Shown: positions 2,732 to 7,541 of the stretch, piece by piece
How positions within the stretch are numbered: position 1 is the stretch's first letter
Layout: every line of letters begins with the position of its first letter
DNA from: Parcubacteria group bacterium
Lineage (GTDB): Bacteria > Patescibacteriota > Minisyncoccia > Portnoybacterales > UBA2143
Length of the DNA: 50,967 bases
Reading direction: 5' to 3'
Assembly (NCBI GenBank): GCA_002685955.1
Contig: NYYU01000041.1
Location: forward strand, 1-50,967
Translations under genes and position numbers: made by a program
The notes under the pieces: generated by a model
Told to the model about the DNA's origin: nothing
The model's database searches: none
Seen by the model: the letters and a program-made list of their open reading frames with translations, nothing else

Positions 2732-3841
2732 ATGACTCAAGATCAACAAATCAATCACCTAGTCAAAAAAGGGCTATTTGACTATCAATTAAAAAAGCAA
2801 AAGCAAAAAAAAGAGCTTATTAAATCATTAAAAATCACTGGTTTAAGCTTATTGGTCCTAGCCGGCCTTTTCCTATTTGTCCAATTATTAATCCCGGCCA
2901 GCTCTATGGAGATATCTTCAGACCCAACCCAACCCAAGAAAAAAAACATTATCAAGTCAATTCTTCCTCTTGATTTAAATAGTATAAAGAATAGTCTGGA
3001 TCAAATTAATATTCTAGCTTTAGGCAGACCCGGCCAAGGTTATTCCGGTCAAGATTTAACCGACACTATTATCCTAATTCATTTAGAGCCGAGCGGAGAA
3101 TCCGCCAAAGGCGGACCCGCCTCTGGCGGGAAAGCGGTTCTAATTTCTTTACCGCGCGATTTGCTGGTTAAAACCCCTGGTTCTGGTCGTCTGACTAAGA
3201 TTAACTCTCTCTATCATCTAGTTGGCATGGATGGCCTTAAGAAAAAAGTAGAAGAAATTACTGGCTTGCCAATAGATCATCATGTTTTAATTGACTTAGT
3301 GGTTGCTCAAGAAATCATTAAACTAGTTGATGGCCTTAATGTTTTTGTCCCTCAAGATATCCATGACCCTTATTTTCCCGGACCCAATTATTCCTATCAA
3401 ACTTTTAATCTGGTCACTGGCTGGCGTTATTTAGATGGAGAACAAGCCCTGAGATACATCCGCACTCGCTACACCTCGCCTAATGGCGACTTTGACCGTA
3501 TGGCCCGCCAACAACAAGTTATCCAGCTTCTTAAACAAAAAGTCTTAACGCTTAACCCTCTTTGGGACTTACCCACTTATTTAAAAATCTTTCATACTCT
3601 TAGAAGCAATATTGAAACTAATTTAAGTCTATTAGAGATAAGAAGGCTTTATCAAATAAGCCGGGAATTAAAAATTGATCAAATAAATAGTCTGGTTATT
3701 GATAAAAAAGAAACCGGCTTATTAACCGGCGGCATGGTGAATTTTGGCCAACAAAAAGCTTCCGTAGTCTATCCTAAAGCAGGCCAAGAAAATTATAATG
3801 AAATACAAAAATATATTAAAGACATAATTAGCAATAGATAA
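2732..3841 (+). CDS. LytR-CpsA-Psr (LCP) family cell-wall ligase-like protein
   Basis: 369 residues with a basic cytoplasmic N-terminus, one membrane helix at about residues 33-55 (LKITGLSLLVLAGLFLFVQ) and an external LCP domain. Recognisable LCP blocks are NILALGRPGQGY, LTDTIILIHLE, VLISLPRDLLV (the conserved S-[IL]-PRD motif with catalytic Arg-Asp), KINSLYHLVG and YIRTRYTSPNGDFDRMARQQQV. LCP enzymes transfer lipid-linked glycopolymers to the cell wall or to surface proteins. The stretch GESAKGGPASGG between LIHLEPS and KAVLISLPRD is not part of the normal domain and is encoded by two GC-rich hairpins (separate entry). The gene is monocistronic, followed by a 217-bp structured spacer. Confidence 0.92.
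   Translation: MTQDQQINHLVKKGLFDYQLKKQKQKKELIKSLKITGLSLLVLAGLFLFVQLLIPASSMEISSDPTQPKKKNIIKSILPLDLNSIKNSLDQINILALGRPGQGYSGQDLTDTIILIHLEPSGESAKGGPASGGKAVLISLPRDLLVKTPGSGRLTKINSLYHLVGMDGLKKKVEEITGLPIDHHVLIDLVVAQEIIKLVDGLNVFVPQDIHDPYFPGPNYSYQTFNLVTGWRYLDGEQALRYIRTRYTSPNGDFDRMARQQQVIQLLKQKVLTLNPLWDLPTYLKIFHTLRSNIETNLSLLEIRRLYQISRELKIDQINSLVIDKKETGLLTGGMVNFGQQKASVVYPKAGQENYNEIQKYIKDIISNR
3101..3130. repeat. Two adjacent GC-rich palindromes inserted in the LCP gene
   Basis: TCCGCCAAAGGCGGA (3101-3115) is followed directly by CCCGCCTCTGGCGGG (3116-3130). Each is a perfect 6-bp stem with a 3-nt loop. The 30-nt block adds exactly ten codons in frame, in a loop between two conserved LCP strands, and is far more GC-rich than the surrounding gene. 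Confidence 0.8.
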
Positions 3842-3976
3842 CAAAAACGAACACTCTAAACTTTACGCTCCGAAAACTAAATTTTTGAAATCGCTTAGCC
3901 CTCCTCTCGCTCCGCTCGAGCAGCGCGCCCACGCCTACGATTCCAAAAACTTGTTTTCTTCGCGTAAGTATAGCGA

Positions 3977-4042
3977 TCACTTTGAATTTTCCGAGACGCA
4001 TCGGAGCCCTTTAGGGTAAAGCGCGAGGAAAATTTAAAGTGA
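3977..4042. repeat. Long inverted repeat in the pth leader
   Basis: The left arm TCACTTTGAATTTTCC (3977-3992) pairs with GGAAAATTTAAAGTGA (4027-4042) over 16 positions with one G-T wobble. The 34-nt loop contains its own small palindrome CCCTTTAGGG. It ends 16 nt before the pth ATG. The whole spacer 3842-4058 has no convincing gene: the 66-residue minus-strand frame in it lacks any protein-like pattern. Confidence 0.7.
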
Positions 4043-4058
4043 GAGCGAAAACAACAAC

Positions 4059-4601
4059 ATGAAATTAATTGTCGGTCTGGGTAATCCAGGAACAAAATAT
4101 CAAAAAACTAGACATAATCTAGGATTTTTGATAATAGATGAAATCGCTGTTAATTTTCAGTTTTCAATCAATTTTCAATCAATTTTCAATGCTAAAATTT
4201 CTAAAAAAATAATTAAAAATCAAAAAATCATTTTGGCTAAACCGCAAACCCTGATGAACAACTCCGGTCAAGCAGTCCAAAAGATGGTCAAATATTACAA
4301 AATCCCGATTGAGGATATTATAATCATTCACGATGAGATTGATTTACTTCTGGGAGAGATTAAGATCCAAAAAGGCCGGGGAGCGGCCGGACACAATGGC
4401 GTCCAATCAATCATAGACCAATTAGGCGCTAAGGACTTTGTTAGAATGAGAATTGGCATTAAACCAATAGATGGCCCTAAAGAAAGAATAATAAATACTG
4501 AAAAATTTGTTTTGAAAAATTTTACATCGGAGGAAAAAGATATTATTGAACAAATAATAGAGAAAGCTGCCCAAATAATTATAACCGCCTTAAATGAATA
4601 A
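4059..4601 (+). CDS. pth: Peptidyl-tRNA hydrolase
   Basis: 180 residues. It releases tRNA from peptidyl-tRNA that drops off the ribosome. Conserved blocks are LIVGLGNPGTKYQKTRHNLGF (substrate loop and catalytic His), AKPQTLMNNSGQAV, IIIHDEIDLLLGEI (catalytic-site Asp) and GRGAAGHNGVQSI. The length is slightly short but complete. The 3' end overlaps dprA by 8 nt, so pth-dprA-topA-rel form a tight overlapping run. The leader carries a long inverted repeat that may control expression or simply be a dispersed repeat. Confidence 0.96.
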   Translation: MKLIVGLGNPGTKYQKTRHNLGFLIIDEIAVNFQFSINFQSIFNAKISKKIIKNQKIILAKPQTLMNNSGQAVQKMVKYYKIPIEDIIIIHDEIDLLLGEIKIQKGRGAAGHNGVQSIIDQLGAKDFVRMRIGIKPIDGPKERIINTEKFVLKNFTSEEKDIIEQIIEKAAQIIITALNE

Positions 4602-5487
4602 ATTCATTAATCCTCAATCTAAATATTTTAACGCTTTTAATTTAATTGGTTTAATCGGCCCAATTGGCTTTAAAAAACTGCTGGCTCATTTTAAGTCTTT
4701 AGAAAATGCTTGGTCAGCTGGAATAAATGAATTTAGCCAAGCTGGTTTAAACAAATCCACTATTGAGCAGATTAGAAAACAACGGCCTCAAATTAATCCT
4801 GATTGGGAAATGGAAAAGCTAGCTAAACACCAGATTAATTTAATCACCATCCAAGATAAAAATTACCCTAAATTACTTAAAGAAATTTATGCTCCACCGG
4901 CTGTCTTATATATCCGAGGCGCTCTTCAAAAAATTGACCAACCAAGCCTAAGTATTGTTGGAACCAGAAGACTTTCCAGCTATGGTCGCCAGATCACTCC
5001 TTTAATTACAACTGATTTAGTCAAAGCCGGATTAGTTATTATCAGCGGCCTGGCTAAAGGCATTGATGCTTTAGCCCATCAGGCTGCTCTTAAAGCTAAA
5101 GGACAAACTATCGCCGTCTTGGGCTCGGGCGTAGATAAATCTAGTATTTATCCTGCTGTTAATAAAAGTTTAGCTGAGCAGATTAGCCAAAACGGAGCGT
5201 TAATCAGCGAATTTCCTATGGGCACGGCTCCTTTGGCTCAAAACTTCCCTCAACGCAACCGAATTGTCGCTGGCTTAAGTCCAGGCATTCTGGTTATTGA
5301 AGCGCCAGTCAGAAGCGGCGCTTTAATTACTGCCAAGGACGCTTTAGAGCAAAATAGAGAGATTTTTGCTATTCCTGGGCACATTCTTTCTCAAAATTCA
5401 ATTGGCCCTAATAATCTTATCAAAATGGGGGCTAAATTGGTTAGCCAAGCTAATGACATCCTCCAAGAACTTAACTTAAATATATGA
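4594..5487 (+). CDS. dprA: DNA processing protein DprA (Smf)
   Basis: 297 residues. DprA binds incoming single-stranded DNA during natural transformation and loads RecA. The Rossmann-like domain is clear: SIVGTRRLSSYGRQ, VIISGLAKGIDALAHQAAL, TIAVLGSGVD, ISEFPMG, NRIVAGLS and SGALITAKDALEQNREIFAIPG. A helical N-terminal part precedes it. The C-terminal winged helix of long DprA proteins is missing or minimal. It overlaps pth upstream and topA downstream by a few bases. Together with the PilB-type ATPase later in the window it hints at DNA uptake, but no comE genes are visible here. Confidence 0.95.
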   Translation: MNKFINPQSKYFNAFNLIGLIGPIGFKKLLAHFKSLENAWSAGINEFSQAGLNKSTIEQIRKQRPQINPDWEMEKLAKHQINLITIQDKNYPKLLKEIYAPPAVLYIRGALQKIDQPSLSIVGTRRLSSYGRQITPLITTDLVKAGLVIISGLAKGIDALAHQAALKAKGQTIAVLGSGVDKSSIYPAVNKSLAEQISQNGALISEFPMGTAPLAQNFPQRNRIVAGLSPGILVIEAPVRSGALITAKDALEQNREIFAIPGHILSQNSIGPNNLIKMGAKLVSQANDILQELNLNI

Positions 5488-7541
5488 ATCTAATTATTGT
5501 TGAATCACCTACTAAATCAAAAACAATCTCAAAATTCCTAGACAAAGAATACAAAGTCTTATCCTCTTATGGCCATGTTCGAGATCTTCCTAAAAATCAA
5601 CTAGGAGTTGATCTTGATGATAATTTTAAACCTAAATACGTCATCCCGACTAAAGCCAGAAAAGCAGTTAAAGAATTAAAGGATGCGGCAAAAAAAGCTA
5701 AGTTGATCATTTTAGGCACTGACTCAGATAGAGAGGGAGAAGCAATTGCTTGGCATATTGCCCAAATTTTAAAATTAGATAAAGAAAATTCTCAACGAAT
5801 TGTTTTCCATGAAATAACAAAAAGCGCAATTGAACAAGCTTTAAAAAATCCGCGTCAGCTTGATACAAACTTGATTAATGCTCAACAAGCTCGACGCATT
5901 TTAGACAGACTGGTTGGTTACAAATTATCACCATTTCTATGGAAAAAAGTAGTCAAAGGATTATCAGCTGGTCGGGTTCAATCAGTAACGGTCAAATTAA
6001 TTGTTGACCGAGAAAGAGAAATAGAAAAATTTAAACCAGAAGAATACTGGACAATCGTCGCTTCGCTCTTCAAGAAACAAGAGTTTGATGCTAAATTGAT
6101 AAAAATAGATAACAAAAGGTTATCTAAGTTGGACATTAAAACCAAACAAGAAGCAGATAAGATCTTAACAGATTTAAAACAGGCCCAATACAAAATTTCT
6201 GATATCAAAAAAAAAGAAGTTCAAAAATATCCCAGTCCGCCCTTCACCACCAGCACCCTGCAACAAGATGCAGCCCGCAAGCTTTACTTTTCAGCTAAAC
6301 AAACCATGGTTATTGCCCAGCAGCTTTATGAAGCCGGCCTTATCACTTACCACCGGACTGATTCCTTAAATTTATCTGATCAGGCCCTAATCGCTTTGCA
6401 TCAATTTATTAAAAGCAAATTCGGCTCCGAATATAATTTGACTCAGCCAAGAATCTACAAAACAAAAAGCAAAGGGGCTCAAGAAGCTCATGAGACAATT
6501 CGACCCACTCAAATTGATGCTCAACCGGATCAGATTAAGCAACGTTTAGATCAAAGACAACGCAAATTGTATGATTTAATCTGGCGCCGGGCGATTGCCT
6601 GCCAAATGGCCCCAGCCCGCTTTGATTCCACTAGTCTTGAAATTGAAGCGAATACTTGTATTTTTAAAGCAACTGGTCAGATTCTAAAATTTGACGGCTT
6701 TTTAAAAATTTACCCAACCAAATTTCAAGAAGTCGAACTGCCTTTACTAACTAAAGGAGAAGTATTAAAATTAATCAAACTATTTTCCGAACAACATTTC
6801 ACCAAACCGCCCGCCCGCTACACTGAAGCCTCTTTAGTCAAAACTTTAGAAGAATATGGCATTGGCCGACCCTCAACTTACGCGCCGATTATCAGCACCA
6901 TTCAAGAACGCGGCTATACAGAAAAAAATGACCAAAAAAGATTTATACCCACTGAAATCGGCTTTATTGTTACTGATTTGCTTAAAGAAAACTTCCCTAA
7001 AATTGTTGATATTAAATTCACTGCTTACTTAGAAAAAGACTTAGATAAAATCGCCCAGGGCCGACAGAACTGGCTAGCGATCCTTAAAGAGTTTTATCAA
7101 CCCTTTCAGGAAAACCTTGATAAGAAATATGAGGAAGTAAAAAAGAAAAATCTTGACCAGCCAACTGACAAAAAATGTCCCAAATGCGGCAGCCCCATGG
7201 TCATTAAATTGGGACGCTTTGGTAAATTCTATGCTTGCTCTGCCTTCCCTGACTGTAGACACACTGAACCAATTATTAACTCCACTGGGACAACTTGCCC
7301 AGAATGCAATCAAGGACAAATAGCCAAAAGGAGAACAAAAAAGGGCAAAATATTCTACTCTTGCTCTCGATATCCTAAATGCAAATATGCCCTATGGGAC
7401 GAACCAATTAACGAAAAATGTCCTGAGTGTAATTCTATTCTAGTTAAAAAGGGCAACCAAATTAAATGCAGCAACAAAGAATGTAATTACAAACAATCAC
7501 ATGGAAATAAAAGAGTTTCTGGAAAAATTAAAAAAGATTAA
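5484..7541 (+). CDS. topA: DNA topoisomerase I
   Basis: 685 residues, type IA topoisomerase that relaxes negative supercoils. The Toprim domain starts IIVESPTKSKTISKFL and has the acidic cluster LGTDSDREGEAIAWH. The nucleophilic tyrosine lies in AGLITYHRTDSLNLSD. The C-terminus carries zinc-ribbon modules (CPKCGSPMVIKLGRFGKF with CSAFPDC, CPECNQGQ with CSRYPKC, and CPECNSILVKKG with CSNKEC). The start overlaps dprA by 4 nt, and the 3' end overlaps the rel gene by 41 nt in a different frame. The domain content is complete for a compact bacterial enzyme. Confidence 0.96.
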   Translation: MNLIIVESPTKSKTISKFLDKEYKVLSSYGHVRDLPKNQLGVDLDDNFKPKYVIPTKARKAVKELKDAAKKAKLIILGTDSDREGEAIAWHIAQILKLDKENSQRIVFHEITKSAIEQALKNPRQLDTNLINAQQARRILDRLVGYKLSPFLWKKVVKGLSAGRVQSVTVKLIVDREREIEKFKPEEYWTIVASLFKKQEFDAKLIKIDNKRLSKLDIKTKQEADKILTDLKQAQYKISDIKKKEVQKYPSPPFTTSTLQQDAARKLYFSAKQTMVIAQQLYEAGLITYHRTDSLNLSDQALIALHQFIKSKFGSEYNLTQPRIYKTKSKGAQEAHETIRPTQIDAQPDQIKQRLDQRQRKLYDLIWRRAIACQMAPARFDSTSLEIEANTCIFKATGQILKFDGFLKIYPTKFQEVELPLLTKGEVLKLIKLFSEQHFTKPPARYTEASLVKTLEEYGIGRPSTYAPIISTIQERGYTEKNDQKRFIPTEIGFIVTDLLKENFPKIVDIKFTAYLEKDLDKIAQGRQNWLAILKEFYQPFQENLDKKYEEVKKKNLDQPTDKKCPKCGSPMVIKLGRFGKFYACSAFPDCRHTEPIINSTGTTCPECNQGQIAKRRTKKGKIFYSCSRYPKCKYALWDEPINEKCPECNSILVKKGNQIKCSNKECNYKQSHGNKRVSGKIKKD

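Follow-up and report, generated by a model that had tools for sequence, protein, structure and literature searches.

A candidate 30-bp double-hairpin mobile repeat read in one dominant frame in protein genes of Patescibacteria

Introduction

Fungal mitochondria, whose genomes are AT-rich, contain scattered short GC-rich hairpins in the form of mobile double-hairpin elements and GC clusters; these are organellar, and the resemblance of the element described here to them is noted for architecture. Most known cases of selfish DNA in essential genes come from Rickettsia and Wolbachia, with a few from elsewhere. Rickettsia palindromic elements (RPEs) are palindromic sequences, about 150 bp in length, that have inserted in frame in protein genes (PMC10969869, PMC2996958), and RPEs, like the coding palindromes of Wolbachia and Methanocaldococcus jannaschii, are selfish in-frame inserts in unrelated housekeeping genes, with the translated peptide lying in tolerant regions (PMC10969869, PMC2996958). 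PARCEL coding palindromes are likewise translated palindromic DNA, but they form tandem amphipathic repeat domains, whereas the present element occurs as single short inserts (PMC2996958). REPs are hairpins of 20–40 bp, frequently arranged as inverted dimers, that fall into GTAG and CGTC superfamilies and are mainly intergenic; many of the intragenic ones lie in replication and repair genes (PMC3733652).

Here, we describe a far smaller element that appears to do as RPEs do in another phylum with reduced genomes, where its targets include ribosomal proteins and tRNA synthetases. Like RPEs, it is a palindrome inserted in frame in protein genes that are unrelated to one another, but it consists of two separate hairpins, uses one dominant frame and measures 30 nt at two empty sites, not about 150 bp. 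The initial annotation of the locus had likened it to RPEs, and this likeness stands as a functional analogy, with length and host phylum differing and the comparison being one of function, not of sequence. An earlier description of the element in Patescibacteria was not found in the open-licence papers searched.

Results

The window, that is, the whole stretch of 50,967 nt that was analyzed, belongs to a MAG of 919 kb with 84% completeness. The product of the ORF at 2732–3841 matches Pfam LytR_cpsA_psr (E 3e-31), and its residues 124–133, SAKGGPASGG, are encoded by a 30-nt block, TCCGCCAAAGGCGGACCCGCCTCTGGCGGG, composed of two perfect hairpins placed back to back, each with a 6-bp stem and a 3-nt loop. 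The two 15-nt halves, TCCGCCAAAGGCGGA (3101–3115) and CCCGCCTCTGGCGGG (3116–3130), are the only matches to CCGCCNNNGGCGG in the window. The features of the locus are as follows.

2732 to 3841, plus strand: host gene, LytR-CpsA-Psr (LCP) family protein of 369 aa (Pfam PF03816; PDB relatives TagT/TagU/TagV)
3098 to 3100, plus strand: GAA codon, left side of the empty site (codon alignment)
3101 to 3130, plus strand: 30-nt double-palindrome element, a clean in-frame gain of 10 codons (missing in orthologs; dispersed family)
3101 to 3115, plus strand: hairpin 1, TCCGCC-AAA-GGCGGA, coding SAKGG (sequence and DNA fold MFE)
3116 to 3130, plus strand: hairpin 2, CCCGCC-TCT-GGCGGG, coding PASGG (sequence and DNA fold MFE)
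3131 to 3133, plus strand: AAA codon, right side of the empty site (codon alignment)

Sequence, ORF and Pfam match confirmed the initial annotation of two perfect GC-rich hairpins that add SAKGGPASGG in frame to an LCP gene, and in DNA folding of this copy the minimum-energy structure was the two-hairpin form. The insert most likely extends a loop that joins two beta strands and confers no new function; the loop was placed by alignment of the protein to a solved relative, and the AlphaFold model (mean pLDDT 46) was too poor for this purpose. Beyond the LCP gene, the 217-nt spacer at 3842–4058 contains patches of high GC content and several inverted repeats of 8 bp, and the next gene (4059–4601), which looks like a putative peptidyl-tRNA hydrolase judging by its start sequence, carries an A/T-rich repeat, TTTTCAATCAATTTTCAATCAATTTTCAAT, in frame at window positions 4155–4190.

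LCP proteins are present in 9/9 genomes of the family to which the window genome belongs. In a codon alignment with LCP orthologs from six related genomes (L044–L049), exactly ten codons, or 30 nt, were missing in five, and the sixth (L046) had a shorter variable segment with five residues at the element position. GAA and AAA are joined directly in the nearest ortholog. Because more distant LCP paralogs are also without the 30-nt block, insertion rather than loss is the simple reading. These comparisons support the earlier view of a foreign in-frame block, since five of the six orthologs are without exactly these ten residues; orthologs sharing them through non-palindromic codons, which the initial annotation had named as evidence to the contrary, were not seen in the alignment. 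A second empty site was found in uS9 of genome G088, which reads ATT TTT (30 nt) GAA AAA, and the ten codons are missing in eight of its relatives. As the closest relative reads GTA TTT GAA AAA, the flanking TTT and GAA predate the insertion, without target duplication.

Across the family, the unit consists of a 15-nt hairpin repeated as an inverted dimer, TCCGCC-RRA-GGCGGA / TCCGCC-TYY-GGCGGA, an arrangement of short hairpins that is also frequent among REP/BIME elements. The T-A/C-G pair at stem position -2/+2 covaries, being paired in 125 of 132 units in hairpin 1 (87 expected) and in 126 of 132 in hairpin 2 (90 expected), while the search pattern itself dictated the inner stem bases, which are therefore uninformative on covariation. 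The loops, of three bases each, are variable; RRA is common in hairpin 1 and TYY in hairpin 2. The center of the unit is GATC in 78/132 and GACC or GGTC in most others. Loops 1 and 2 were reverse complements of each other in 26/132 units against 14 expected, so that the loops are mostly independent and one long hairpin instead of two was rejected, although RNA folding of the window copy preferred a single longer hairpin (-23.1 kcal/mol, z -1.9 versus shuffles).

The flanks show a preference for WTTN|NAAW that is alike in genes and spacers, in place of the unpaired GTAG or CGTC end tag of REP/BIME elements; the LCP copy departs from it in having no TT on its left side. Unlike MITEs, the element shows no target-site duplication at the two compared empty sites, LCP and uS9, and elsewhere only a weak 7-nt flank signal. 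In the flanks of 149 elements (L060–L212), a scan for direct repeats spanning the element gave peaks at shifts of 37 and 44. The 7-nt-shifted repeats numbered 17 against 3.2 expected, a modest excess for which clean insertion does not account, with 7-mer arrays accounting for 3 of the 17. Despite these peaks, target-site duplication as a general rule was rejected, because a 7-bp duplication would break the reading frame.

Within the 919-kb window genome, CCGCCNNNGGCGG has 16 sites and its reversed control none; for the looser core CGCCNNNGGCG the counts are 42 and 4, respectively, and the exact 15+15 tandem occurs in three copies versus 0. The copy in contig 32 matches the LCP copy at 29/30 positions and lies about 1 kb upstream of the 16S rRNA, the copy in contig 55, TTCGCCAGAGGCGAACCCGCCTTTGGCGGG, has paired stem changes, and both lie outside ORFs of at least 70 aa. 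A whole-genome search, proposed at the outset for counting hits in genes and spacers, thus bore out the dispersal of the repeat but placed the other two tandem copies outside ORFs, so that the in-gene pattern becomes clear only across many genomes.

Single CGCCNNNGGCG hairpins with unlike, longer arms were also seen in the window genome, many in spacers or near gene starts (for example, L030:3860-3900, L031:4088, L034:4252, L101:2001-2045 and L099:2001), and a few have a ACTAAAGGTTTTGT-like right flank; they may be regulatory hairpins and not the 30-nt element. The core CGCCTTAGGCG occurs twice in the 16S rRNA gene (L031:5031 and L031:5129; gene at 4961-6582 by Rfam), and a single hairpin in an ORF of contig 22 (L027) encodes residues that look native to that protein.

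Among genomes of the class, mostly MAGs like the others used here, CGCCNNNGGCGNNNNCGCCNNNGGCG was found in 89/383, with 346 matches against 3 in the reversed control and a maximum of 20 per genome. The richest were G214 (20 copies) and G375 (19 copies), and the one-contig genome G123 has 15. A phylum-wide draw gave 36 positive genomes among 379, with up to 25 matches per genome and a reversed control near zero. Some single matches, such as those in G234 and G440, are probably due to chance. The tandem unit was absent from the other eight members of the window genome's family, the plasmids searched contained no element match, and 3 matches were obtained among 2.9 million viral contigs.

We read 149 distinct copies, a non-random sample in which shared ancestry was corrected by protein clustering only. 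ORFs of at least 100 aa hold 109 of them, with 40 outside, whereas REP/BIME elements are mostly extragenic. The three frames are used 93, 14 and 2 times among the 109 in-gene copies. The dominant frame, TCC-GCC-NNN-GGC-GGA, yields SAxGG(S/P)AxGG and accounts for 73/84 when counted by gene family or protein cluster; copies from other classes mostly use the same frame. Given the flank preference for TTN on the left and NAA on the right of the element, TTNNAA motifs in the same ORFs, counted by codon phase, served as the null, with phase 0 at no more than 36%. Against this null of about 36%, the observed 85% gives p ~1e-26, and counting by gene cluster gives 3e-22. Stop codons are mostly absent from the other frames, and therefore the bias points to selection and not to a lack of alternatives.

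The host genes encode RecG, IleRS, AspRS, AlaRS, LepA, transketolase, Dus dihydrouridine synthase, DnaE, bL21, uS9, DnaK, GyrA and DnaG. Compared with solved structures, the element coincides with an exact 10-aa gap for uS9 and for one copy in IleRS, and it also stands at gap positions in bL21, DnaK, GyrA and DnaG. The IleRS of one genome carries two copies. Three DnaG copies share one loop, as do two DnaK copies, and the offset of a few residues shown by one DnaG copy and by the DnaK pair suggests independent insertions. The GyrA copies and the Dus copies occupy the same, homologous site between genomes of related species, which may reflect inheritance.

Discussion

In this study, we observed a dispersed family with clean insertion at two sites, a flank preference, stem pairing and use of one frame. 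We consider the block in the LCP gene, with a probability of about 0.82, to be a single copy of a tiny, non-autonomous Patescibacteria repeat that was inserted as exactly 30 bp and whose selfish spread is filtered by frame. A plausible model is that the element spreads selfishly, probably by way of a single-stranded intermediate that forms hairpins and is moved by a host enzyme or a transposase, and would insert near TTN|NAA; purifying selection would then strip in-gene copies unless they are read as the flexible SAxGG(S/P)AxGG in a tolerant loop. The 30 nt are assumed to be without function. With less confidence, though we favor it, we propose a previously undescribed, phylum-wide 30-bp double-hairpin mobile family, inserting at TTN|NAA without target duplication and repeatedly giving Patescibacteria proteins a standard ten-residue linker.

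Mobilization in trans of a REP/BIME-type element by a Y1 (RAYT / IS200-like) transposase, as single-stranded DNA and without target duplication, would be a specific version of this small-repeat reading and not its opposite, and we regard it as possible but doubtful. It agrees with the inverted dimer of short hairpins and the clean LCP and uS9 sites, and Y1_Tnp, a profile wider than RAYT, was matched in 67/89 element-bearing against 164/294 element-free genomes (odds ratio 2.4, p 0.001, phylogeny ignored). However, 22/89 carriers, the richest two (G214 and G375) included, have no Y1_Tnp match, the window genome yields just a short fragment below threshold, and no GTAG or CGTC tag occurs in the element flanks. 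A Y1/RAYT transposase as a requirement is thus unsupported; the association with Y1_Tnp in general is weak, and the many carriers without such a gene may set the element apart from the GTAG REPs with their RAYT transposase.

The conserved stems, the wide spread and the presence of copies in both genes and spacers would also suit a recognition word, such as a DNA-uptake or chromosome-maintenance signal, accumulating by biased uptake and recombination and kept for its function. This is improbable, as copies arise as whole 30-nt insertions and not by point changes (LCP, uS9), many related genomes have no copy and there are few copies per genome. An RNA stem-loop (terminator, stabilizer or attenuator) with an incidental in-gene location has a chance as low or slightly lower: the RNA fold of the window copy is stable and 40/149 copies lie outside ORFs of at least 100 aa, but the majority lie in ORFs in one frame and the fold z is only -1.9. 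Although the genomes used are mostly metagenome assemblies, an assembly artefact or chance palindrome is extremely unlikely given the occurrence in dozens of separate genomes, one of them a single contig, the homologous GyrA and Dus sites in related species and a reversed control near zero.

Copies of the repeat amount to many natural loop-insertion experiments, and they raise the question of which enzyme moves 30 bp without target duplication. Caution is also warranted in annotation, where SAxGG(S/P)AxGG residues of Patescibacteria proteins may stem from the repeat and not be functional.

In the LCP ortholog of G007, a member of the window genome's family, the next loop holds another insert, also in frame but about 30 residues long (L049, minus strand, ~2140-2210). 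Among the other loci examined, the core word of this insert was found in the overlapping L059 only. The insert contains a 15-bp inverted repeat, CCCCGCGCCTTTCAA...TTGAAAGGCGCGGGG, with a DNA fold z of -5.8, and could represent a second, longer class of coding palindrome.
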